Below, piece after piece: positions 6,805 through 49,483 of a stretch of 49,483 nucleotides of DNA; position 1 is the stretch's first letter; each line of letters begins with the position of its first letter. The DNA comes from Desulfurobacteriaceae bacterium (GTDB lineage: Bacteria; Aquificota; Aquificia; Desulfurobacteriales; Desulfurobacteriaceae): positions 11,851 through 61,333 of the forward strand of contig JBDOLX010000093.1 of assembly GCA_039832905.1 (NCBI GenBank), read 5' to 3'. A program made the position numbers and the translations under genes. The notes under the pieces are model-generated. The model did no database searches. It was given only the letters and a program-made list of their open reading frames with translations, and was not told the origin of the DNA.

Positions 6805-7857
6805 ATGGAAATACTTGAAAGAATCGCTCAGGAAGCAGAACAGAACACCCAAGTCCCTGCTTACCCAAGAAGTGTTGAAAAAGTTATCGCAGCAATAAGA
6901 TCTACTTCTAACTTTTGGAAAATCGTAGATCTGTCTGATGAACCACTACCTCTTGTAGCTGAAATCTTAAAGCTTCTTAACAGAGAAGGACTTATTGCAT
7001 TTGAAGGAACTCAAATTTTACTTACAGAAAAGGGTGCTGAGCTTGTAGAAAAGCTTGGAATTGAAAGTTTTGTTTCCCACAAGTGCCCAACCTGTAATGG
7101 AAGAAGCGTTGTTATTACAGACCTAAAAGAAGCGTTTGAGAAGTTTCTCAAAATCCAAGAAAACAGACCTCCTGCTATCCACCAGTACGACCAAGGTTAT
7201 GTAACTCCTGAAAATACTTTTGCAAGAGTTGCTCTTGCAGATAGCAGAGGAGATTTAAGAGGAAAGAATGTAGTTGTTCTTGGTGATGATGACCTTATGA
7301 GTATTGCACTTGCTTTAACAGGACTTCCAAAGAAAGTTACAATCCTTGAAATAGATGAAAGACTTATTGACTTTATAAAGAAAGTTTCTGAAGAGTATAA
7401 CCTTAACATCGATGCAAGAGTTCACGACCTAAGACAGCCTCTTCCAGAAGACGTTGTTGGAGCTTACGATACATTCTTCACAGATCCACCAGAAACTGTA
7501 GAAGCTATTAAGGCTTTCGTAGGAAGAGGAGTTGCTACACTTAAAGGACCAAGATGTGCTGGATACTTTGGGGTAACAAGAAGAGAATCTTCCCTTGATA
7601 AGTGGGCAAGAATCCAGAAAGTTCTCCTTGATATGGGACTTGTAATTACAGACCTTCTACACAACTTCAACGAGTATGTAAACTGGGATTACTATCAAGA
7701 AATGAGAGGATGGCAGCTTACACCTGTTAAAGAACCTCCAAAGGAAATCTGGTACAAGTCCACACAGTTTAGAGTTGAAACTGTTAGAGGATTCAAAGGA
7801 TTTAACGATCCTATTGTTGGAGATATCTACAACGACGCTGAAAGTTCTACTACTTAA
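6805..7857 (+). CDS. bpsA: N4-bis(aminopropyl)spermidine synthase (branched polyamine)
   Basis: This 350-residue protein matches the BpsA/DUF43 family described in hyperthermophiles such as Thermococcus kodakarensis. Visible parts are an N-terminal winged-helix-like segment (about 20-85), a CPTC pair at 94-97, the SAM-like site VVVLGDDDLMS with the acidic GDDD at 160-163, and FTDPPETVEA with DPPE at 227-230. The enzyme adds two aminopropyl groups to spermidine, giving a quaternary branched polyamine linked to nucleic-acid stability at high temperature. It is the last gene of the polyamine operon and is followed by a terminator. Confidence 0.91.
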   Translation: MEILERIAQEAEQNTQVPAYPRSVEKVIAAIRSTSNFWKIVDLSDEPLPLVAEILKLLNREGLIAFEGTQILLTEKGAELVEKLGIESFVSHKCPTCNGRSVVITDLKEAFEKFLKIQENRPPAIHQYDQGYVTPENTFARVALADSRGDLRGKNVVVLGDDDLMSIALALTGLPKKVTILEIDERLIDFIKKVSEEYNLNIDARVHDLRQPLPEDVVGAYDTFFTDPPETVEAIKAFVGRGVATLKGPRCAGYFGVTRRESSLDKWARIQKVLLDMGLVITDLLHNFNEYVNWDYYQEMRGWQLTPVKEPPKEIWYKSTQFRVETVRGFKGFNDPIVGDIYNDAESSTT

Positions 7858-8257
7858 AACTTTCTTGAGGGTGGGAACTCCCCACCCTACTTATTTTTGT
7901 AATGATAAGGGAGACAGGCAAGTATTTTACTTTAATAATTTCATTTTCTCGGAAGCTTCTAATAGTTAGTCTATCTATTAAGACTTCTCCATTCCTGCAC
8001 GTAATTCTTTTCTCGTAAAGGAAATTTCTAACTCTTGATACTTCGCAAGTAGTGCTTTGTAGATAGCTTTCTCCTCTTTTAGGAAACTGAAAAACATCTT
8101 CTGTAATTTCCAAAGATGTCGTTATTCCAACAAAAAGTAAGATTGTAAGAGGAACCATCAGTTCTAAGTGGTCTTTCCTTAATAGGAGTTGGAAAAGAAT
8201 AATTAGAAGGTAAATGGACAGCACTATAAGTGATAGAGAAAATAAAAGATTTTTCAC
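7850..8257 (-). CDS. Small two-helix membrane protein, unknown
   Basis: This 135-residue frame follows the K+ channel gene by 51 bases. It has two hydrophobic helices (about 4-25 and 34-50) and a soluble C-terminal half with two Cys (STTCEVSR, RITCRNGEV). I recognise no family. The GTG start at 8257 has no clear ribosome-binding site, so the start is unsure. Its last 25 bases run through the bpsA terminator hairpin, and the stop overlaps the bpsA end by eight bases. Confidence 0.6.
   Translation of the reverse strand: MKNLLFSLSLIVLSIYLLIILFQLLLRKDHLELMVPLTILLFVGITTSLEITEDVFQFPKRGESYLQSTTCEVSRVRNFLYEKRITCRNGEVLIDRLTIRSFRENEIIKVKYLPVSLIITKISRVGSSHPQESFK
7868..7897 (+). terminator. Terminator of the speB-speE-bpsA operon
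   Basis: An 8-bp stem AGGGTGGG / CCCACCCT with loop AACTC is followed by ACTTATTTTT. The T tract begins a few bases after the stem, so it is slightly imperfect, but the GC-rich stem and position ten bases after the bpsA stop fit an intrinsic terminator. On the minus strand the hairpin lies inside the coding sequence of the small membrane protein. Confidence 0.75.
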
Positions 8258-8308
8258 GAGGATAAGTATTACACCTACTTTTAAATCTATCCTTTCCTCC
8301 GAAAAGAG

Positions 8309-9658
8309 TTAAAAAACTACAAAAACATTATCCCCATCCTCTAACTTTTCTTCATCGGGAGGATTCAGTATTACCTCTTCTTTTCTCTCTATTGCTATCG
8401 GTAAGGCTTTATACCTTCTGAGATATCTTATAAGTTCGCCGAAAGTTTCAAAGTTACCTACCTCTTTTATTTTTACTTTCTTTATAGTACCTTCATTTGT
8501 TAAAAGTTTTTCCATTAGCTTCGCAGATCCAGGAGTGACAATACTATTAAACATTAATCTTCCAATGACTTTACCGTACATAAAAACTCCGTTTACTCCT
8601 AGTCTTTTCTCAAAAACTTCTGCGTTCTCATCGTGAAGAACTTCAACGTAAATCTTAGCTTTTGGATTCATTGTCTTTACAAGCATTGCTGTTAGTGCTG
8701 TTCTTGCATCTACGTTTCTGTCAGATAAACCTTCTTTTCTTTCACCCAAAATAACAACCTCAGATGCGTTTTGAATAGAAACTTCAACCAAAATCTGTTC
8801 TTTTGTAAAGTCTCCTTTTTTATAAAGAATGTACTTGCTTATATCCACTCCAAGTTCAGATTTCTCAAGTTCTGTAACTAAAACAACAGGTTTTTCCTTG
8901 TCCAGTCCAGTTCTTATTATTTCCTCTACAAGCTCTTCACCGCTTTCACTCCACCCACAAATAACAAGATGATTCTTTAATTTATCCATCTTTAGTCCTT
9001 CTCCTTTAAGAATGTTCATTCTGTTTATAAGGGTTGCTGAGAAAGTAGCAGTTAATGCTGATACAAGAACTATTCCCCCACTTATTAGCAAAGATGCCAA
9101 GAATTTTCCTTCTTTTGTGACTGGAGTAATATCTCCGTAGCCGACTGTTGAGATCGTTACAATTCCCCAGTATATGGCTTCAAAAACGGAGTGGAATGCT
9201 TTGTTCCCAGCGTTATATTCGTAGATGTATACAGTTAACGAAATTGTCACTATCCAGAGTACTAATGTGATAACTATAAATGAGATTATAGGAGCTTCTT
9301 CCTTTATCGCTAAAAAAAGACTTCTTAAAGCGTAAGTGTATCTAAATATTTTTAAAAGTCTTAAAAGTCTAAGTATTCTGAGCGTTCTAAATGGTCTAAA
9401 AATTGGAAGTATTGCAAGAAGGTCTATTATCGAGTAGGGCTTTACCATCCATTTCAGTTTAGGCTCTAGTGCTATAAAGAACGCCTTTATATAGCTTCCT
9501 GTATTTGACAGACCTTCTCTAAAATCATCTATAAAGTCGGATATGACCCAGAACCTTAAAATGTACTCAACAACAAAGAAAAGAAGGGATATTTCCTCGT
9601 AGTCGTCAAACAGTCTTTGAAGATCTGGAGGTAAAGGAATATCTATCCACAGTTCCAA
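8309..9658 (-). CDS. Voltage-gated-type potassium channel with RCK/TrkA-N domain
   Basis: A six-helix K+ channel. Visible are S2 (LLFFVVEYILR), an arginine-rich S4 (RTLRILRLLRLLKIFR), a pore loop with selectivity filter TVGYGD, S6, then a cytoplasmic RCK/TrkA-N Rossmann domain (LVICGWSESGEELVEE). The last 60 residues look like a TrkA-C-type domain. The given start is TTG 9658, but the frame is open to 9838. The upstream part encodes the missing S1 helix (LLYDTFALFIVV, then PIVLEL) with no ATG, GTG or TTG. The true start is probably a rare codon such as ATT 9814, overlapping the cimA end. The gene follows cimA. Confidence 0.88.
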   Translation of the reverse strand: MELWIDIPLPPDLQRLFDDYEEISLLFFVVEYILRFWVISDFIDDFREGLSNTGSYIKAFFIALEPKLKWMVKPYSIIDLLAILPIFRPFRTLRILRLLRLLKIFRYTYALRSLFLAIKEEAPIISFIVITLVLWIVTISLTVYIYEYNAGNKAFHSVFEAIYWGIVTISTVGYGDITPVTKEGKFLASLLISGGIVLVSALTATFSATLINRMNILKGEGLKMDKLKNHLVICGWSESGEELVEEIIRTGLDKEKPVVLVTELEKSELGVDISKYILYKKGDFTKEQILVEVSIQNASEVVILGERKEGLSDRNVDARTALTAMLVKTMNPKAKIYVEVLHDENAEVFEKRLGVNGVFMYGKVIGRLMFNSIVTPGSAKLMEKLLTNEGTIKKVKIKEVGNFETFGELIRYLRRYKALPIAIERKEEVILNPPDEEKLEDGDNVFVVF

Positions 9659-9806
9659 AACAATAGGAACAGAAGAAGTAACAACTATAAAAAGAGCAAA
9701 AGTATCATAAAGAAGGCGATAAGGTCCTGTATCACTCTCAAGAAGGTTGTATAGCCATATTTTTACTTTTTTTAGTCTTGTTAGAATTTTTTTGGAGAAA
9801 CTTTCT

Positions 9807-11417
9807 TTAAGAATTTTTCCCTTCCTCTTCTTCGTCTTTCATTAGTTTGTATTTTAACGCATCTACAAGGGCTATCCAAGATGCTTCTATCACGTTAGGT
9901 GAAACCCCAACCGTTCCCCACTTTCTCTTACCGTCGGTTGATTCTATTAAAACTCTTGGGGAAGAAGCTGTTCCGCTAGCTTCATTTAAGATTCTAACTT
10001 TGTAGTCAGTAAGCTTTACTTCTTTTATTGAAGGGTAAAACTTCTCAAGAGCTTTCCTTAATGCCTTATCAAGAGCTTCTACTGGTCCTCTACCTTCAGC
10101 AGCTGTATGCTCTACTCTGTCTTTTATACCTTTTTCTCTCGCTATTTCTTCAGGAATCTCTACCTTTATGGTAGCTTCTGCATAGGCTTCTTCGTTTTCA
10201 GATCTCTTTTCTGTGAAAACTCTAAAACCTTTTAACTCAAAGTATTTTTTAGTAAGCCCTAAAGTTTCTTTTAAAAGAAGCTCAAAGGAGGCGTCTGCTC
10301 CTTCAAAATGATAACCTTGAGCTTCAAGATTCTTAATCTTGGAGAGAACTTTTTTAACCTCTTCAGAGTTCTTTTCAAGTTCTATTCCAAGTTCTTTTGC
10401 TTTGTTTACTATATTGCTTCTTCCAGAAAGTTCAGAGACCATAATTCTTCTTCTATTTCCAACAAGGCTTGGGTCTATATGCTCGTAAGTTCTTGGATTC
10501 TTTTCTACTGCTGATACATGAACGCCAGCTTTGTGGGCAAAGGCGTTATCACCAACAAATGGAAGGTTTACAGGATGAGGTCTATTGGAAAGTTCAGAAA
10601 CAAGCCTTGAAACAGAATAGAGTTTCTTAAGGCTCTCTTTTGGTATGGACTCATATCCCATTTTTAGAACAAGGTTAGGGATTATTGAACAAAGATTTGC
10701 ATTTCCACATCTTTCACCAAGACCGTTAATTGTTCCTTGAATCTGGATAGCACCCTTTTTAACTGCTATTAAAGAATTTATAACTGCCATATCTGAATCA
10801 TTGTGGGCATGAATTCCAAGAGGAGCTTTTACCTCTTTTATAACATCATCAAATATTTTTTCTGCTTCATACCACAAAGTTCCACCGTTTGTATCACAAA
10901 GAACTAAACAATCTGCACCAGCACTCTCGGCAGCTTTTAAAGTTTTCATAGCATATTCAGGATTCTCTTTGTATCCATCAAAAAAGTGTTCTGCATCGAA
11001 AAAAACTTCATCAAAGTATTTCTTAAGGTACGTTATTGTTTCATAGATTAGTTCAAGGTTTTCTTCAAGACTTATCTTTAAAGCTTCTGTTACGTGTAAG
11101 TCCCAAGATTTCCCAAAAACCGTTACTGCAGGGACTTCTGTCTTTACAAGCTGCTGTATATTTGCGTCATCCTCAATCTTTATTCCTTTTCTCTTTGTTG
11201 AACTGAAAGCAACAATTTTGGAGTTTTTTAGGTCAAGACCTTTTACTGTTTCAAAGTAAGCCAGATCTTTTGGATTTGATCCCGGCCATCCACCCTCTAT
11301 GTAATGAACTCCAAGTTCATCAAGAGCTTGAGTAATTCTCAGCTTATCCTCAAGAGAAAAAGAAATCCCCCTTGTCTGGGCACCATCTCGTAAAGTCGTA
11401 TCGTATATATAGACCAT
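9807..11417 (-). CDS. cimA: (R)-citramalate synthase
   Basis: The 536-residue HMGL-family enzyme begins [17 protein letters not shown] (DTTLRDG catalytic loop). It has the metal-binding [12 protein letters not shown] and [11 protein letters not shown] motifs and a C-terminal LeuA-type regulatory domain (about 390-520). Length and the opening residues favour CimA over LeuA or homocitrate synthase, though these are close relatives. Citramalate synthase condenses pyruvate and acetyl-CoA, opening a threonine-independent route to isoleucine. It lies 15 bases after lysC, probably in one operon with it. Confidence 0.88.
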
Positions 11418-11432
11418 TGCCTTACCTCATTC

Positions 11433-12659
11433 CTAGGCTTGTTCACTCTTATCAAGTCCAAAAGCCTCGTGGAGAACTCTTACAGCGAGCTCTGTAAACT
11501 TCTCGTCTATGATACAGGATATCTTTATTTCGGAAGTTGAAATCATCACAATGTTTATTCCATAATTTGCAAGAGTTTCAAAAACTTTTCCAGCTACTCC
11601 AGCGTGGCTTCTCATTCCGAGTCCAACGACAGAAACTTTCGCAATTTTGTCATCTCTTATTACGTTCTTTGCTCCAATCTCTTTTGCAACCTCTTTTGTT
11701 ATTCTTTCGGCCTTGGCTGCATCGTTTTTCTCTACTGTAAAGGAAATATCTGTGTAGCCATCAACAGAAACATTCTGAACTATCATGTCAACCGGAATGT
11801 TGGCATCAGCAAGAGCATCAAAAATTTTTGCAGCAATACCAGGCTTATCTGGAACTCTTTCTACTGTAATTCTTGCTTCATTCTTGTTATGGGCAATTCC
11901 TCTTACTACAACTCTTTCCATTGTTTCGTCTTCCTCCTTAATAAGCGTTCCTTCGTCCTTTGTAAAAGTACTTCTAACTCTTAGAGGAACTTTATACTTC
12001 ATTGCGAACTCTACTGACCTTATCTGAAGAACTTTTGCACCTAAAGATGCAAGTTCAAGCATTTCTTCATAGGATAGAACGTCAATTTTCTTGGCTTCTG
12101 GAACTATTCTTGGGTCGGCTGTATAAACTCCATCCACATCGGTATAGATATCGCACCTTTCAGCCTTCAAAGCGGCAGCAAGGGCAACGGCAGAAGTGTC
12201 TGATCCACCCCTTCCAAGGGTTGTAATATCGCCTTTTTCTGTTATTCCTTGAAAACCGGTAATTATGACAATTTTTCCTTCTTTAAGGTGTTTTTTTATT
12301 CTTTCAACATCTATGTCAAGAATCCTTGCTTTTGTAAAGGCTTCGTCCGTTTTTATTCCTGCTTGCCAACCTGTTAAAGAGATAGCAGGATGTCCCATAC
12401 TGTTTAAAACAATGGAAAGAAGTCCTGCAGATACCTGTTCTCCAGTAGAAACTACAAAGTCCATATCCCTTTCGTTTGGTTCAGGAGTTATTTCTTTTAC
12501 AAGGTTTATTAGCCTATCTGTTTCTCCAGCCATTGCAGAGACAACAACAACAACATCGTTTCCTCTTTCTTTCTCCTCTAAAACCCTTGTCGCAACGTGC
12601 TTTATTCTATCTATTGATCCCATAGATGTTCCACCAAACTTTTGAACAACGAGAGCCAT
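11433..12659 (-). CDS. lysC: Aspartate kinase
   Basis: The 408-residue protein has the aspartokinase signature [12 protein letters not shown] at the N-terminus, [20 protein letters not shown] and the [15 protein letters not shown] motif. Two ACT domains follow (about 265-335 and 345-405; [20 protein letters not shown]), the usual binding site for lysine or threonine feedback. It phosphorylates aspartate at the head of the Lys/Met/Thr pathway; asd, the next enzyme, is at 19341-20357. The ATG has GGAGGCGAATTA upstream. It sits between gltB and cimA. Confidence 0.95.
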
Positions 12660-42083: not shown

Positions 42084-43175
42084 GTGATGATTACAGACGA
42101 AAAATTCATGAAGCTTGCTATCAAGGAAGCCTACAAAGCAAAAGGAAAAACCCTTCCTAATCCGGCAGTTGGTGCCGTTATAGTTAAAGATGGCAAAGTA
42201 ATAGCAACAGGTTATCATGAAAAGGTAGGACTTCCCCATGCTGAAAGAATAGCGATAGAGAAAGCAGGAGAAAATGCTAAAGGATCTATACTTTACGTAA
42301 CCCTTGAACCTTGTAACCATTATGGAAAGACCCCTCCCTGTTCAGAAAAAATAATAAATGCTGGAATAAAGAAAGTAGTGGTCGGAATTAGAGATCCTAA
42401 CCCTGTAGCGAGAGGGGGAGTTGAAAGGCTAAAAAGTGCAGGAATAGAGGTAAAAGTTGGAGTTCTTGAAAAGGAGTGTTTTGAGCTTATAGACGACTTT
42501 ATTGTTAACTTGAAGGAAGATCGTCCTTTTATTTCTTTAAAGCTCGCAGCAACACTTGATGGGAAAATTGCAGATTATAAAGGAAATTCCAAGTGGATAA
42601 CTTCTAAAGAGTCCCGCAAACTTGTTCATCTTTTAAGAAGCTACCATAATGCTGTAATGGTAGGAATAGGAACTGTCCTAAAAGATGACCCACTTTTAAA
42701 TGTGAGAGAAGTAGAAACAAACTTTCAGCCTAAAGCAATAGTTGTTGATCCCCACTTAAAAATTCCTTTAGATTGCCGATTAATAAAAAGTAGAAGTGAA
42801 GACTTGATAATCATTACTACAAGGAAAAGTATGACTTCTGAGAAGAGTTTATTTTTAAGAGAGAGAGGAGTTAAACTACTAGAAGCAGGTAAAAGTTCTA
42901 TTGAACTTAAGACTGTTTTGGGAAGGCTAAGAAAAGAGTTCGGTATTTATTCAATTATGTGTGAAGGTGGCTCAAAGTTGGCAGGTAGCTTATTGGAGGA
43001 GAATTTAATTGATAAGTTCTACCTATTCTATGCACCTAAAGTCTTAGGTGGAAAGGGAATGTCAATGTTTGAAGGAGGTTTTTTGATAGAAGATGCTCAT
43101 CCAATTAGGATCTTTTCAATCAATAGTATAGGTAATGATTTACTAATTAAGGCTTATAGAATAGAGGCAATATAA
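42084..43175 (+). CDS. ribD: Bifunctional riboflavin biosynthesis deaminase/reductase
   Basis: The 363-residue RibD has an N-terminal zinc deaminase (LPHAERIA and EPCNHYGKTPPC, with LPNPAVGAVIV) and a C-terminal NADPH reductase from about residue 145 (RPFISLKLAATLDGKIAD, MVGIGTVLKDDPLL, CEGGSKLAGSLL). It performs the second and third steps of riboflavin synthesis. The start is GTG 42084, eight bases from AAGG; ATG 42087 is possible. The stop overlaps the methyltransferase start (TAATG). Confidence 0.96.
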   Translation: MMITDEKFMKLAIKEAYKAKGKTLPNPAVGAVIVKDGKVIATGYHEKVGLPHAERIAIEKAGENAKGSILYVTLEPCNHYGKTPPCSEKIINAGIKKVVVGIRDPNPVARGGVERLKSAGIEVKVGVLEKECFELIDDFIVNLKEDRPFISLKLAATLDGKIADYKGNSKWITSKESRKLVHLLRSYHNAVMVGIGTVLKDDPLLNVREVETNFQPKAIVVDPHLKIPLDCRLIKSRSEDLIIITTRKSMTSEKSLFLRERGVKLLEAGKSSIELKTVLGRLRKEFGIYSIMCEGGSKLAGSLLEENLIDKFYLFYAPKVLGGKGMSMFEGGFLIEDAHPIRIFSINSIGNDLLIKAYRIEAI

Positions 43176-43987
43176 TGAAACTGGGTACTATAGGAAATGC
43201 TGAAAGAAATTTGCTTTATATTCCTAAGAATATAAAAAGAATAGAAGAAAAAAAATACAGTTTAGGAAGAGAACTTTTAAAAGACGGTATTCCTAGAGGG
43301 ACTACCTACTTTATTGCTGCGGAAAGAATAAAAGATGAAAGTAAAGTTTTAGAAGTAGGATGTTCTTATGGTTATTTTGGTAAGCAACTAAAGAATTTAA
43401 AACAGGTAAATATAGTTGGAATAGATATTGATAAAGAAGCTTTAACTGAAGCTAAAGAAACAGGTGCCTATGATACATTGTTAGAGATGAACTTAGAATC
43501 TTCTCAATCTCTCTATGAGTTAAAAAAAAGATACTATGAAAGTTTCGATACTATTTTATGTTTGGATGTTTTAGAACATATAAGAAATATAAATGAACTT
43601 TTTTTAACTTTAATTTCTTTGCTGAAACCTGAAGGAGAACTAGTAGTAAGTATTCCTAACATAGGGCATTTAGATATTATTTACAATCTATTAATTGGAA
43701 GATTTAATTATTCTCTTCTGGGAATACTTGATAACACTCATCTAAGGTTCTTTACTGAAGATTCTTTTAGGGACTGGATTCAGATTATATCTGAAGATAA
43801 CAAGTTGAATTTACAAGTAGAGTTGATTGGACAAACTTTTTCAGATCGGATAGAACTGTCTGGAGAGTTGGATAATAATCTACAAGAATATGTAATAAAG
43901 AAGCTGATTTTAATGAGTAAAAAAGTAAACAATAGAAATTTATTTGTCGTTCAAAATTTGTTCTCAGTTAGGAGATATAATGGGTAA
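43175..43987 (+). CDS. SAM-dependent methyltransferase (class I)
   Basis: The 270-residue protein has motif I VLEVGCSYGYFG (about 64-75), the acidic residue after strand 2 in VGIDIDKEA, and motif LCLDVLEHIRN. This is the Methyltransf_23 pattern, often acting on sugars or lipids in surface-glycan clusters. It overlaps ribD by TAATG and the glycosyltransferase gene by eight bases, so it is probably the first gene of the glycan cluster in expression terms. The substrate is unknown. Confidence 0.82.
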   Translation: MKLGTIGNAERNLLYIPKNIKRIEEKKYSLGRELLKDGIPRGTTYFIAAERIKDESKVLEVGCSYGYFGKQLKNLKQVNIVGIDIDKEALTEAKETGAYDTLLEMNLESSQSLYELKKRYYESFDTILCLDVLEHIRNINELFLTLISLLKPEGELVVSIPNIGHLDIIYNLLIGRFNYSLLGILDNTHLRFFTEDSFRDWIQIISEDNKLNLQVELIGQTFSDRIELSGELDNNLQEYVIKKLILMSKKVNNRNLFVVQNLFSVRRYNG

Positions 43988-46850
43988 TAAAAAGGGAATA
44001 AGTTTGTTAATTCCTACTTATAACCGGCCTTACTTTCTTCGTAGAGCTCTTATTTCTGTCTTGAATCAAACTAGACTACCGGATGAAATAATAATTTCTG
44101 ATGATAATCCCTCTTCTAATGAAAACTTTGTAGCTATTAAAGATTTGGTTGAAAAACATAAAGGGCTGATAAGATATAGGAAAAATAGTGAAAGGCTAGG
44201 GGTAGAAAAAAATTACTCCAAATTATTAGAAGAAGCAAATTATGAATATGTAAAGTTTCTTGCAGATGATGATTGGTTGCATCCAGAAACTTTAGAATTA
44301 ATGGAAAAAGTCCTTGATCGATATGAAGAGGTTGTCCTTGTTTCTTCTCAAAGAATTCCTGTTAATGAAGAAGAGGAGCTTGTTTACGGTGTAGAAGCCA
44401 CGAAACCTTTATGTAGTGAAGATCAAATATTGAATGGAAAAGAGGTAATAAGGAAATCCTTAACTGATTTAAAAAACTACGTAGGAAAATTTTCAACCTA
44501 TATGTTTAGGAAATCTCATTTAGATATAAATCCTTTTCAGTTTTGTGGTTTAAACTTTAGAGCCAATGCAGACTGGGTTTTATGGATGTATTTGCTATCT
44601 AAGGGAAATCTTTTCTATTTTTCTCGTCCTTTGTCTTTTTTTACTGTTCATTCTGGACAAGATCAAATTAGTTTGAGTGATCAAATCTCTGGGGTTAAAG
44701 AACGTATAGAACTCATTTTTAATGAGAGAGTTCATAAAACTTTTGGTATTCAACTAACTTCTGAAGAAAAAGCACAAGCGGTTGAAAACTTAGCGTTAGA
44801 TTTAGGTTATTTAAAATTAAAGCTTCCTAAGAACAAAACTGAAGAACTAATAGAGATCCTTTTAGAAAAGTATCAAAAAGATCTGTTAAAAATAATGAAG
44901 GAAGAATATGATCGTTCTCCCTTTTCTATTATAGTTGTTACCTATAACTCTTCTTCGACTATAGAAAAACTCCTTGAATCCCTGAACGCTTCTATAAGAG
45001 AAGATGACGAAGTAATAATTATTGATAATGCTTCACACGATGATACTTTCTCTATAATTGAAGAATTTTTAAGAAAAAAAGAACTCACAAATTATAAGGT
45101 TGTTAAGTTAAATGAGAATATTGGTTATGCTGCTGCAGTAAATGAAGGAGTAAAGTTATCCAGGAATGACTATCTCGCTTTTGTTAATCCGGATACAGTT
45201 CTTCCTGTTAATTGGAGTAAAGTTGTTTACGAAAATTTGAAAAAGACAGAAGTTGGAGCAGTAGGAGCAATTTCTAACTATGCTATTGATTTACAAGATG
45301 TTAAAAGATTTTCCTCCTTTGCCGAGGTTCTGGAAGAAGAAACCTTCTGCAAGTATGTAAACTTAGTTAATGAGCACTTGGGTAATTTATACGGGAAAAG
45401 CAGTGAAGAAAAGAAATTTCTTGTAGGTTTCTTTTTAGCAACGAAAAAGGAGGTCTTTGAAAAGGTAGGGGGCTTTGATAAAGAACTTTTTTTAGGAATG
45501 GATGACCTAGATTACTCTCTAAAATTAAGAGAGCACGGTTTTAAACTTCTTCTTCCTAAGAATCTTTTTGTTTACCATGAAGGACATGTTTCGTTTAAGA
45601 ATAGCAAAGGAAGTGAAAAACTTAGAGAGTTGACGGAAAATGTTTTTGCCGAGAAATTAATAAAGAAGTATGGTTTCGGCAATGTACCTACACCTGAAGA
45701 TCTTTGGGCAGATAAGGGGGCAATTTACTTTGCAACTTTTTTACCCGCAGATCCTAAATATAGGTTTATGTTTAAGTTCTCAGATGGAAAAGTGGATTTT
45801 AGGCATGTAGCGAAGGAGATTGTAAGAAAGCCAAAAGTAGGAATCATTACAGTTTCTTATTTTTCGTCAGAAGAAATATATCTCATGGCAAGGAGTTTAT
45901 CCAATTTATCCTATACTAATTTTCATTGGTACATAATAGATCATTCTGAAGACGAAAAAGAAATAGATCTTTTAAGATCTGCTACATTAGTTTTACCTGA
46001 CCATAAGGTAACAATTATAGGTAGAGAAAATCTTGGCTATGCAGCAGGAGTAAATTTTGGTGTTGAATTAGCCCTTAAGGATGATTGTGAGTATTTATGG
46101 ATTTTAAATCCAGATGTAGAAGTAGAGTCTAACACACTTATTGAATTACTAAGAACGGTTCTATTTACCGGGGTTCCTGTTGTAACCTGTAAGATTAGAG
46201 ATTCTGTTGAAAGAGATAAACTCCAATATGATGGATTTAGAGCTAGTTATAAGCCTTTTCTGGACTATCCTCAGCGAATACATAGAGTTTTATTTTTGTC
46301 TGGAGCTAATATATTTTTAAAGGCAGAAATTTTTAAAAATGTGAAATTTGAAGAATCGTACTTTCTCTATTTTGAGGATAATGATTTTTATGAAAAACTC
46401 TTAGGTTGTGGACTGTATCCTTTATATACTCCTTATGTTAGTGTTTATCATAAAAATAAAAGCGGTAAATTTTTATCTTCACCAGTAGAGATTTATTATT
46501 TTTTCAGAAATCTCATTTTCTTTTTTAAAGGAAGAGATATTTCATTTATTATCGAAAAGGTTTTTGAAGTTTACAAAAATATTTTTTCAAACAAGAAAAA
46601 GCTTAGATCACTAATAGCTGCTATTTACGATGGAGTATTTGATAAACTAGGAAAAAGTGACCTTTCTTTCCTTTCTTCCCTTCCTAAAGATCGAAACAAA
46701 AAGAAACTTCTAAAAAGCTATCTGGACCTAAGAAGAGTTAGTAAAGTTCTAGCAATGGAAAAAGGAAGAGAGTATCTGCTTTTAAATCCAAGGGATAGGG
46801 ATGTATTCTATAAATACTTTAGGGACGCTATAATCTTGATGGAGAGGTGA
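43980..46850 (+). CDS. Triple-module GT2 glycosyltransferase
   Basis: Start at ATG 43980 after TTAGGAGATATA gives 956 residues; an upstream in-frame start at 43944 is rejected. Three GT-A modules are visible: module 1 about 6-230 (LIPTYNRPYFLRRAL, LADDDW), module 2 about 312-520 (IIVVTYNSSSTIEKLL, FVNPDTVLP, GFFLATKKEVFEKVGGFD) and module 3 about 617-850 (VGIITVSYFSSEE, LGYAAGVNFG, ILNPDVEVE). Modules 2 and 3 resemble rhamnosyltransferase-type GT2. Several linked enzymes suggest assembly of a repeating or multi-sugar glycan at the membrane. Confidence 0.9.
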   Translation: MGNKKGISLLIPTYNRPYFLRRALISVLNQTRLPDEIIISDDNPSSNENFVAIKDLVEKHKGLIRYRKNSERLGVEKNYSKLLEEANYEYVKFLADDDWLHPETLELMEKVLDRYEEVVLVSSQRIPVNEEEELVYGVEATKPLCSEDQILNGKEVIRKSLTDLKNYVGKFSTYMFRKSHLDINPFQFCGLNFRANADWVLWMYLLSKGNLFYFSRPLSFFTVHSGQDQISLSDQISGVKERIELIFNERVHKTFGIQLTSEEKAQAVENLALDLGYLKLKLPKNKTEELIEILLEKYQKDLLKIMKEEYDRSPFSIIVVTYNSSSTIEKLLESLNASIREDDEVIIIDNASHDDTFSIIEEFLRKKELTNYKVVKLNENIGYAAAVNEGVKLSRNDYLAFVNPDTVLPVNWSKVVYENLKKTEVGAVGAISNYAIDLQDVKRFSSFAEVLEEETFCKYVNLVNEHLGNLYGKSSEEKKFLVGFFLATKKEVFEKVGGFDKELFLGMDDLDYSLKLREHGFKLLLPKNLFVYHEGHVSFKNSKGSEKLRELTENVFAEKLIKKYGFGNVPTPEDLWADKGAIYFATFLPADPKYRFMFKFSDGKVDFRHVAKEIVRKPKVGIITVSYFSSEEIYLMARSLSNLSYTNFHWYIIDHSEDEKEIDLLRSATLVLPDHKVTIIGRENLGYAAGVNFGVELALKDDCEYLWILNPDVEVESNTLIELLRTVLFTGVPVVTCKIRDSVERDKLQYDGFRASYKPFLDYPQRIHRVLFLSGANIFLKAEIFKNVKFEESYFLYFEDNDFYEKLLGCGLYPLYTPYVSVYHKNKSGKFLSSPVEIYYFFRNLIFFFKGRDISFIIEKVFEVYKNIFSNKKKLRSLIAAIYDGVFDKLGKSDLSFLSSLPKDRNKKKLLKSYLDLRRVSKVLAMEKGREYLLLNPRDRDVFYKYFRDAIILMER

Positions 46851-46853
46851 GAA

Positions 46854-48110
46854 GTGGAAGAGAAAGTAAGTGTTTTAGTGATTTCAACTGGTAAATTTAA
46901 TGAGGAATTGGTCACTTCACTGGAAGAAAATAGAGACTATATTAAGGAAGTTTTTATCTCAGGTGATACAAGTTCTCTTCCTGAAGGAATCAAGGATCTT
47001 CAAATTCCTTTGATTTATTTGGATATCCAAACTTTTAATAAAGCTGTCATAAGGAATAAGTTTTTAGAGTCCTCTTCGTCAGAATTGGTTCTTTTCCTTA
47101 GTTCTGAATGTTCTTTAGAAGATTCAACAATTGAAGAACTCGTTGCAGATATGGAGGATTTTGGGGCAGATATTGTTTATCCTAACTTAATAGTGCAACT
47201 TGGGGAGGAAGAAAAAATAAGAAACTTTGACGATTTTTATGGAAAAGAAGTTGAGATTGTGAAAAGTCTTTCCATAGAAAAACTTATTCCTGAATGGGGA
47301 ATACTTGCTAGAAAGTCAAAAATAGAAAGTTTAAATCGTTTTGATGAAAAGTTTGCAGATTACGAATTTTATGAATTTTTGTACAGAAACCTCAGAAATC
47401 TAAGACTGAAGCTTTCTGAGCTTAGTTATGTAACTTACTCGATAGGCAATACTTTTATAGATACATCATATAGAAGTTTGGTTATACGAAACAACGTACT
47501 AAAAAATTATGATTGGAAGTCAGAGATTTTTCCCTTTCTCTCATGGGAAGAAAAACCGGAAGTAGCTGAAGCAACTGCCCTCACGATAGTAGGTAGAACT
47601 CTTTCAGACTATTATGATTACTTTAACGCATCAGATTTCTTTAGAAAAGCTTTACTTACATTTCACAACCAGGTAACCTTGCAGGAATTAATAAAAATCT
47701 ATTTAAATATGGGATTATTTAGAGAAGCAAAAGACTTAATTAGTGATTTACAAGGAGTATCTAAAGAAGATCAGGAGAAATTAAACTTTTATACTGAAAA
47801 AGTGGAATCTTTAGTTAAAGAGCTTGAAAAGGGAGTAGAAGAAGGGAAGGTTTTTGAGGTCTTTACTGCTATTCAGGATGTGGCAACATTTTACGAGGGA
47901 GCACCTATTCATAATATTCTCGGAGTTATTAATTGGATACAAGGTAATAAGGAAGAGGCTTATAAATTTTTCTTTAAGGCAGTAACGATGAATCCTTTGG
48001 ATAATGACTATCTCTACAATCTTGCAGAAGTGGCAAAGGATCTCAATAGAAAAGAAGAAGTAAAAAACCTTATTGAGAGACTGGTTAGTATCGAGAGGAA
48101 AAATGGTTAA
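46854..48110 (+). CDS. Degenerate GT-A-like domain with TPR repeats
   Basis: This 418-residue protein starts with GTG 46854. Residues 1-200 have a GT2-like layout (VSVLVISTGKFNEEL, AVIRNKFLESSSSELVLFLSS, then DFGADIVYPNLIV) but no clear DxD, so activity is doubtful. Residues about 240-410 are helical repeats, with at least one good TPR unit (HNILGVINWIQGNKEEAYKF). It may be a scaffold for the neighbouring enzymes. It overlaps the sulfotransferase start by eight bases. Confidence 0.75.
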   Translation: MEEKVSVLVISTGKFNEELVTSLEENRDYIKEVFISGDTSSLPEGIKDLQIPLIYLDIQTFNKAVIRNKFLESSSSELVLFLSSECSLEDSTIEELVADMEDFGADIVYPNLIVQLGEEEKIRNFDDFYGKEVEIVKSLSIEKLIPEWGILARKSKIESLNRFDEKFADYEFYEFLYRNLRNLRLKLSELSYVTYSIGNTFIDTSYRSLVIRNNVLKNYDWKSEIFPFLSWEEKPEVAEATALTIVGRTLSDYYDYFNASDFFRKALLTFHNQVTLQELIKIYLNMGLFREAKDLISDLQGVSKEDQEKLNFYTEKVESLVKELEKGVEEGKVFEVFTAIQDVATFYEGAPIHNILGVINWIQGNKEEAYKFFFKAVTMNPLDNDYLYNLAEVAKDLNRKEEVKNLIERLVSIERKNG

Positions 48111-48972
48111 AAAAAATAAATCAAGAGATGAAAATTATTGGAAAGTTTTAAATTCCTTGAAAGAAAGAGAATTTTTTAAAGATACATTAAAACAGCTAAA
48201 ATCTAAGAGGTTGATATTCACGGTAACAACTGGGCGCAGTGGGACAGGATATCTGGCAAAGATGTTATCTTTATTCCCTTCTATTTACGCTTTTCACGAA
48301 CCGGAGCCTGATTTTGTAGATGTCATGAGAAAAGCAATAGAAAAACCAGAATTGGCTGTTAAGTTTTGGGTTTTCAAAAAGTTGCCGGTTATAGCAAAGC
48401 TTTTAAAGAATATTTACTGTGAAACGAGCCATTTATTCTGTAAAGGGTTTTTCTATCCTTTACTTGACTTAGGCATTCTTCCTGAGCTGATCATTTTAAG
48501 GAGGGAGAGAAGAAAAGTAGCAAAGAGTTTATTTGAATTAGATACTATTCCTGGTAGAACACCATTAGCTATCTTTTACTACTTGAAACCTGATGACAGA
48601 GGAGTCTATTTACCTTTAGCAAATTGGCAAAAGCTTCATGACTATCAACTATGTTATTGGTATTGTTTAGAAATAGAAAAAAGAATGGAAATTTATAGAG
48701 AAGAAGTACTAAAAAGAGGTGGCAAAGTATACGAGGCAGAATTTTCATCACTTCTTAGTCTTGAAGGCTTTATTTCTTTTGTCGATAAGATGGGAATACT
48801 TCCTTCACATCCTGAAAACATTATTGAAAAACTTAAGCAACAAATAGGAAAGAAGATTAACGAGAAAAGGGAAGAAAAAGTTAGGAAACTTGAAAAGGAA
48901 CTTTCCACTTCTCAGATAGAGGAACTAGAGAGGGAAGTGGAAAACTTGGTGGGGTATTCGGGGTACAAATGA
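48103..48972 (+). CDS. Sulfotransferase family protein
   Basis: Start at ATG 48103 after GAGAGGAAAA gives 289 residues; an earlier in-frame GTG/ATG context at 48073 is rejected. The PAPS 5'-phosphosulfate loop is TTGRSGTGYLAKML (about 42-55), followed by FHEPEPDF and the second binding motif ELIILRRERRKVAKSL (about 138-153). The C-terminal 50 residues are charged and coiled-coil-like. It may sulfate a surface glycan. Its stop overlaps the next gene (ATGA). Confidence 0.82.
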   Translation: MVKKNKSRDENYWKVLNSLKEREFFKDTLKQLKSKRLIFTVTTGRSGTGYLAKMLSLFPSIYAFHEPEPDFVDVMRKAIEKPELAVKFWVFKKLPVIAKLLKNIYCETSHLFCKGFFYPLLDLGILPELIILRRERRKVAKSLFELDTIPGRTPLAIFYYLKPDDRGVYLPLANWQKLHDYQLCYWYCLEIEKRMEIYREEVLKRGGKVYEAEFSSLLSLEGFISFVDKMGILPSHPENIIEKLKQQIGKKINEKREEKVRKLEKELSTSQIEELEREVENLVGYSGYK

Positions 48973-49483
48973 AAATTTCTGCTTGCATAATAGCGAAGAA
49001 CGAGGAAAAAAATCTTCCTAGACTTCTTAAGAGCCTTAGGGGAAAGTTTGAAGAGATAATACTTGTTGATACAGGATCAGAAGATAGAACAGTAGAGATA
49101 GCAAAGGAATATGGTTGTAAAGTTGTAAAACACGAGTGGAATGGTTTTGCAGATGCAAGAAATAGAGCTATAGCAGAAGCAACTGGTGATTGGATATGGC
49201 ACTTTGATGCCGATTTCGAGCTTGAAGAAGAGGAGTATAAGAAAGCTTTGGTTTATTTAAAAAACGTTCCTGATTCTGTAGATGCAGTCTTAATAGGAGT
49301 AAAGAACTTTGATAAGTTTGGAAAGGTAAAAAGTATATCCTCTCACATTTTTATTCATCGAAATAAACCTAAGATTAAATGGGTTGGAAAGATCCATGAG
49401 ACCCCAAATGTAGAGTTTGCAATAGGTATTCCTATATTTGTGAACCACTATGGTTATGCAGATGAGAAAATACAGATAGAGAA
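48969..49483 (+). CDS. GT2 glycosyltransferase, WaaE/KdtX-like (partial, cut by window end)
   Basis: The first 171 codons are visible, starting at ATG 48969 within an ATGA overlap. The N-terminus MKISACIIAKNEEKNLPRLL, EIILVDTGSEDRTVEIA, FADARNRAIAEATGDW and the metal motif FDADF are the pattern of LPS core glucosyltransferases of the WaaE/KdtX type. WVGKIHETP also fits that family. The remaining C-terminal part lies beyond the window. Confidence 0.88.
   Translation, partial: MKISACIIAKNEEKNLPRLLKSLRGKFEEIILVDTGSEDRTVEIAKEYGCKVVKHEWNGFADARNRAIAEATGDWIWHFDADFELEEEEYKKALVYLKNVPDSVDAVLIGVKNFDKFGKVKSISSHIFIHRNKPKIKWVGKIHETPNVEFAIGIPIFVNHYGYADEKIQIE

Follow-up and report, generated by a model that had tools for sequence, protein, structure and literature searches.

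The five genes at the end of a 49,483-nucleotide stretch of DNA from Desulfurobacteriaceae bacterium (contig JBDOLX010000093.1; the whole stretch is referred to as the window) almost certainly form a real flagellin-glycosylation locus. Their products would probably O-glycosylate flagellin in the cytoplasm, adding a methylated and sulfated oligosaccharide in which we infer a sulfate ester donated by 3'-phosphoadenosine 5'-phosphosulfate (PAPS) and transferred by a P-loop sulfotransferase-like protein (ST). The gene order beside the flagellin gene fliC in related genomes, the presence of a PAPS pathway, a sulfotransferase-type predicted fold and the recurrence of ST in flagellar loci elsewhere were observed. 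The right edge of the window is the end of the contig (C93), and the genome itself (G000) comprises 1.66 Mb in 120 contigs.

Gene order and the flagellin locus in related genomes

All five genes lie on the forward strand. The first (43175..43987), whose initial base is also the final one of ribD, encodes an S-adenosylmethionine-dependent methyltransferase of 270 residues (Pfam Methyltransf_23, 1.1e-16), for which O-methylation of the flagellin glycan is proposed. It is followed by the gene for a triple family 2 glycosyltransferase (GT2; 43980..46850), that for a pseudo-GT-A domain with a tetratricopeptide repeat (TPR) tail (46854..48110), the ST gene (48103..48972) and a gene for a further GT2 resembling SunS (48969..49483). 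The last of these is still open at the end of the window after 171 codons, and its complete relative in the nearest genome has 477 residues with a long C-terminal part. A preliminary description of this DNA had spoken of five overlapping genes. This applies to three of the four junctions (8 nt between the methyltransferase and triple GT2 genes, 8 nt between the TPR protein and ST genes, and 4 nt between the ST and terminal GT2 genes), but the triple GT2 and TPR protein genes are separated by a gap of 3 nt. No membrane-type segment was found in any window protein, which fits a modification carried out in the cytoplasm.

The target of the cluster is very probably flagellin, because the cluster runs into fliC-flaG-fliD-fliS in four relatives and because the genomes with a short flagellin carry the GT2-TPR gene, the counterpart of the terminal GT2 gene of the window (14/14, as against 0/3 with a long flagellin). 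In the nearest relative (G002), which belongs to the same genus and is available as a single contig, the same genes lead through the 477-residue GT2 to FliC, FlaG, FliD and FliS, as identified with Pfam. Synteny of the window cluster with this genome at 64–94% identity excludes a chance arrangement; the methyltransferase has orthologues in the same place there (94%) and in G013 and G008 (46%). In G013 and G008, methyltransferase, triple GT2, ST, pseudo-GT/TPR and GT2 genes precede fliC and its neighbours, which were recognised by position, size and BLAST, and in G009 only the pseudo-GT/TPR, ST and GT2 genes are retained before the flagellin genes. The glycosyltransferase (GT) genes thus adjoin the flagellin gene in all four genomes, while the window contig ends before fliC.

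Of the 22 family genomes, 17 showed a main flagellin locus, with a short flagellin (about 285 residues) in 14 and a long one (about 505 residues) in three; the remaining five include the genome of the window, where the contig break hides fliC. Every short-flagellin genome has the GT2-TPR gene upstream of fliC (in most of them directly before it), and all 13 that were readable at this point have the pseudo-GT/TPR gene, whereas both genes are missing from the three long-flagellin genomes. One of the latter (G004) carries Maf-like and NeuB genes instead. Outside the family, both genes were found in G024, which has a short flagellin, and neither in G025, which has a flagellin of 299 residues. A Maf/nonulosonic acid reading of the window cluster was ruled out, as neither Maf nor NeuB was detected among its five genes with Pfam.

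A sigma-28-like promoter, defined as up to two mismatches to TAAA-N14-16-GCCGATAA (a pattern matched by 2.5% of random stretches), precedes each of the 20 fliC genes tested, 32–41 nt ahead of the start codon. In G002 this promoter and the end of the GT2-TPR gene overlap (L012 18760-18829), and such an overlap may account for the recurrent Ser-Asp-Asn tail of the GT2-TPR protein. A candidate sigma-28 promoter before the methyltransferase gene was rejected: the single site, with one mismatch and a spacer of 14, lies at 42757 inside ribD, and about one such site is expected in the window by chance according to a rough hand estimate. An assignment of the cluster's own fliC to contig C117 was likewise not supported, the flagellins encoded there being divergent (28–31% to FliC of G002). 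That contig (L079 4324-8051) holds a second, divergent flagellin set with two flagellin-like open reading frames (ORFs) and genes resembling fliD and fliS; ahead of it lies a gene whose 692-residue product matches UDP-GlcNAc 2-epimerase weakly.

It is very improbable that the cluster serves to make a surface polysaccharide (capsule, exopolysaccharide or lipopolysaccharide) and adjoins fliC by accident. ST homologues of other phyla do occur in GT-rich clusters devoid of flagellar genes, and genomes of the family hold separate flippase/sulfotransferase clusters. However, the five window genes include no flippase, polymerase, priming transferase or membrane segment, the GT2-TPR gene stays at fliC in all 14 short-flagellin genomes while other cluster members vary, and in Gammaproteobacteria the same ST is again found by fliC, there surrounded by a different set of genes. 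The preliminary description had left polysaccharide, flagellin and pili open as targets and had considered that neighbouring genes might point to an unrelated role; gene order in the relatives favours flagellin and disfavours a surface polysaccharide, and the neighbours there are the flagellin genes themselves.

Glycosyltransferases and the TPR protein

The triple GT2, with 956 residues from an ATG or 968 from an upstream TTG, had been described as holding three GT-A modules, and Pfam indeed places Glycos_transf_2 in three stretches (9e-58). Acidic motifs are kept in all three: ADDD near residue 95, NPD near 402 with DDLDY at 509, and NPD near 711 with EDNDF at 800. A role in glycan elongation is proposed. 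Its counterpart in G002 consists of two ORFs of 270 and 694 residues, and the fliC locus of G006 holds a homologue of 63% identity in the opposite orientation.

The following protein (418 residues) has weak Pfam matches to GT2 and TPR and was modelled as a GT-A fold with helical repeats (predicted local distance difference test score, pLDDT, 92). Its first Foldseek match is SunS (1e-9), and GT-A folds align with Z scores of 21 to 16. An aligned DxD motif is missing from all 14 homologues, in keeping with the earlier label 'degenerate'. On this ground, together with the precedent of Caulobacter FlmG, whose TPR part binds flagellins (PMC7591256), a role as a scaffold or flagellin-binding adaptor is plausible.

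The terminal GT2 matches PF00535 (7.3e-29) and the SunS model TIGR04195 of NCBIfam (4.3e-18); the latter match reaches 65.9 bits, below the cut-off of 350, so that the protein is likened to SunS in how it may work and not placed in that family. Its HFDADF motif is invariant in 12 of 12 sequences. Because this motif is kept, the TPR protein lacks DxD and the TPR part of FlmG binds flagellins, attachment to flagellin would fall to the terminal GT2 and binding to the TPR proteins.

The sulfotransferase-like protein

The ST of the window (289 residues), for which PAPS-dependent sulfation is proposed, matched no Pfam family and no NCBIfam sulfotransferase model, and a phmmer search of PDB sequences returned nothing up to an E value of 10. 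Sulfotransfer_1 and Sulfotransfer_3 were matched neither by this protein nor by its homologues in L145, L101 (second copy) and L113. No relative was found with tblastn against plasmids or in a scan of viral contigs. Six homologues in the family are 51–70% identical to the window protein, and the P-loop (5'-phosphosulfate-binding) motif TVTTGRSGT, formed by codons 40–48 (48220..48246, forward strand), is invariant in all seven family homologues. In an alignment of 59 rows from many phyla, restricted to hits better than 1e-10, R45, H65, E66, R134 and S142 are each kept in 57–58 rows. For the P-loop GRSGT the counts are 57/59 for G44, 57/59 for R45 and 58/59 for G47, and for the Arg-X7-Ser motif 58/59 for both R134 and S142. 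Arg134 and Ser142 are presumably the counterparts of the 3'-phosphate-binding Arg and Ser of known sulfotransferases, and we take His65 and Glu66 to sit where the catalytic Glu of tyrosylprotein sulfotransferases (TPSTs) is found.

The AlphaFold model of ST (pLDDT 86) is structurally closest to sulfotransferases, the best matches being the sulfotransferase domain of curacin synthesis (Z 12.7) and human TPST1 (Z 12.6). Against 4gbm, Z was 12.7 with a root mean square deviation of 4.0 over 205 residues, and the best Foldseek match was to 8w5z (1.2e-4). Tyrosylprotein and curacin-type sulfotransferases share the fold and the cofactor motifs with ST and differ in sequence, identity to the structural matches being 11–18% over the aligned part. 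The predicted fold and the conserved residues of ST are those of PAPS sulfotransferases, in line with the PAPS-type sulfotransferase that the preliminary description had read from the motif TTGRSGTGY, which is present; the residues for PAPS contact that it had singled out for checking are conserved.

The lack of a Pfam or NCBIfam sulfotransferase match might also be explained if ST did not transfer sulfate at all but were some other P-loop enzyme or a binding protein, for instance one that is kinase-like or inactive, and adenylate kinases do align to it with Z of about 10. Such a function is nevertheless quite improbable, given that sulfotransferases head the structural matches and align over more residues (205–217 compared with about 170), that almost every row of the alignment retains the HE pair as well as the Arg-X7-Ser motif, and that a gene for adenosine 5'-phosphosulfate (APS) kinase lies close by ST in two Gammaproteobacteria.

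The main alternative is that ST sulfates the flagellin polypeptide rather than a sugar, either on Tyr, as TPSTs do, or on Ser/Thr. Human and tick TPSTs are among its best structural matches, and in all four readable flagellins encoded next to an ST, the strand that precedes the conserved DVT/NVT contains a Tyr. We consider this unlikely, as the curacin domain ties with TPST in Z score, the same Tyr is present in 6 of the 12 flagellins that have no linked ST (Fisher p 0.12), and ST at fliC is always accompanied by sugar enzymes; in G015 and G018, where ST lies elsewhere, the flagellin position of that Tyr is occupied by Phe.

PAPS supply and other sulfotransferases

Genes for PAPS synthesis, which the preliminary description had recommended looking for, are present in the genome of the window: CysQ, CysC and Sat all score above NCBIfam cut-offs. 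They are found on contig C33 (L038 136-7513) in the order CysQ, a permease of CitMHS/TrkA-C type, CysC and Sat, with a flippase further on. A strong match to the APS kinase CysC was obtained in 10 of the 22 family genomes, all ten of which also have Sat. It occurs in six of seven ST-bearing genomes compared with four of the other 15 (Fisher p 0.015, not corrected for kinship).

No PAPS/APS reductase was found among the PF01507 hits of the window's genome or of G002, and G009 has none. The hits in the window's genome are DndC, a TtuA-like and a ThiI/MnmA-like protein, and those in G002 are TilS and a TtuA-like protein. A sulfate assimilation role for the PAPS_reduct hits of the window's genome was rejected, since DndC is the top hit and the remaining ones resemble tRNA thiolation enzymes. 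This DndC, of DNA phosphorothioation, is encoded on contig C114 (L001) and scores above its NCBIfam cut-off.

Other sulfotransferases were searched for with PF13469 and PF00685 in 22 genomes, 14 of them in the family. Neither Sulfotransfer_1 nor Sulfotransfer_3 was matched in the window's genome or in G002; as the latter is a single contig, the cluster ST is the sole sulfotransferase found there by these searches. The frequency of strong APS kinase matches in the family, several of them in a flippase/GT cluster with another sulfotransferase, casts doubt on the earlier statement that bacteria of this type seldom have sulfated glycans. In G007, G009 and G017 the row of PAPS genes runs on into other sulfotransferases and GT-like genes, which suggests that a sulfated surface polysaccharide is made as well.

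ST in flagellar loci of other lineages

When 84,980 species genomes were scanned for ST, 51 loci came up, eight of them with flagellar genes in the fetched flank; as the survey used BLAST with a small reference set, 8/51 is a lower bound. Six loci of Halomonadaceae and Microbulbifer contain FliC, a protein of 950–1000 residues (a TPR-GT41 protein by Pfam in L145), a hexapeptide acetyltransferase and ST. The flagellin locus also includes an APS kinase gene in Halomonas (L143 10169-10807) and Chromohalobacter (L145 9839-10438), directly after ST or one ORF later. Among 121 genomes searched in the Halomonadaceae, the family of Chromohalobacter, ST was found in six, and all six have it with flagellin, a GT41-type protein and an acetyltransferase. 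A metagenome-assembled genome (MAG) of Rhodospirillales combines hook and filament genes with TPR-GT41, a probable methyltransferase, ST and FliC.

In a MAG of Neomarinimicrobiota (L113), ST lies with FlgH, FlgI, FlgK, a flagellin/FlgL-type protein and FliW. It is followed by a gene (7393-11907) for a 1504-residue fusion of GT2-Methyltransf_24-Sulfotransfer_3-GT2-GT2-TPR and then by those for a TPR protein and a GT2. In predicted domain content, this fusion is a one-chain version of the inventory that the window holds in separate genes.

A single clade of all flagellar STs was rejected (approximately unbiased test, p 5e-71), and at least three changes are forced on the tree. Four rows (L137, L147, L148 and L149) had been dropped from the first ST tree as partial or distant, leaving 54, and five further long-branch rows were dropped for the clade test, which used a quick tree of the remaining 49. 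Since the flagellar STs do not form one clade, recruitment to flagellar loci seems, judging from these sequences, to have occurred more than once.

Discussion

The order of steps, the acceptors and the sulfate ester given here are proposals. The SunS-like GT2-TPR enzyme (48969 onward) would begin the glycan in the cytoplasm by attaching a sugar to Ser/Thr of the short flagellin, where the pseudo-GT/TPR protein may hold flagellin or the enzymes. The triple GT2 could then extend the glycan by up to three sugars, the methyltransferase would methylate it, and ST would sulfate a sugar hydroxyl with PAPS. The donor would be supplied by Sat and CysC and the by-product, 3'-phosphoadenosine 5'-phosphate, removed by CysQ; the decorated flagellin would then leave via the flagellar secretion system. 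The methylated and possibly sulfated glycan of the preliminary description fits this set of predicted GT2 enzymes, methyltransferase and PAPS-type sulfotransferase.

Several observations weigh against a sulfated flagellin glycan. The fliC of the cluster itself is not seen, as the contig breaks within the GT2 gene and the only flagellins found in this genome are the divergent ones on C117. In G015 and G018, ST (L020 16765-17613 and L021 3285-4133) lies away from fliC after ppx/ppk/SixA-like genes, although the fliC loci of both could be read and lack it; the contigs concerned end within about 350 nt of ST. G018, a draft of 120 contigs, is also the ST-bearing genome without a strong CysC match. 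PAPS would have other uses in G008, G009 and G013, because G013 has a true PAPS reductase (CysH) and all three match Sulfotransfer_1/3, as does G007. Finally, 43 of the 51 ST loci have no flagellar gene nearby by the BLAST test, and several of these are in GT-rich clusters.

Sugar-modifying genes grouped with the flagellin gene are a feature shared with known flagellin glycosylation islands. Surveys in Geobacillus (PMC5109656) and Enterobacteriaceae (PMC4875605) describe GT2 or GT41 enzymes with methyl- or acetyltransferases; both treat methylation and one also acetylation, formylation and lipoylation, and no word beginning with 'sulf' occurs in the main text of either. The locus described here differs from the islands as presented there in its sulfotransferase and PAPS supply. 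FlmG likewise joins TPR and glycosyltransferase functions acting on flagellin (PMC7591256), but it is a GT-B enzyme in one chain, whereas the enzymes of the window are of GT-A type with helical tails, and a GT-A/TPR protein that looks inactive is encoded separately. The peptide S-glycosyltransferases SunS and ThuS are the best named relatives of the terminal GT2, and SunS is the first structural match of the pseudo-GT; the terminal GT2 scores far below their family cut-off, and its expected acceptor is flagellin, not a bacteriocin. In Halobacterium salinarum, archaellins bear sulfated N-glycans, and sulfotransferases act there on the glycan of a swimming filament (PMC11980604); that system is archaeal and N-linked, and it is likened to ST by role and not by sequence. 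Sulfated bacterial flagellin was not found in the open-licence papers searched, where the matches were archaeal cases, tyrosine sulfation of plant peptides and unrelated work.

We lean slightly towards the view that several bacterial lineages have independently recruited one undescribed ST family for sulfated flagellar sugars, which would be the bacterial equivalent of sulfated archaella in halophilic archaea. If true, sulfate would be a new decoration of bacterial flagellin, beside the methyl, acetyl, formyl and lipoyl groups listed in one of the surveys, and a sulfotransferase family outside Pfam would be added. A testable parallel with sulfated archaella would be provided, and the retention of a PAPS pathway in thermophiles without a detectable PAPS reductase would be explained. 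For marine and hydrothermal species, a possible benefit of the negative charge is that filaments are kept from sticking together or are stabilised in hot, salty water.

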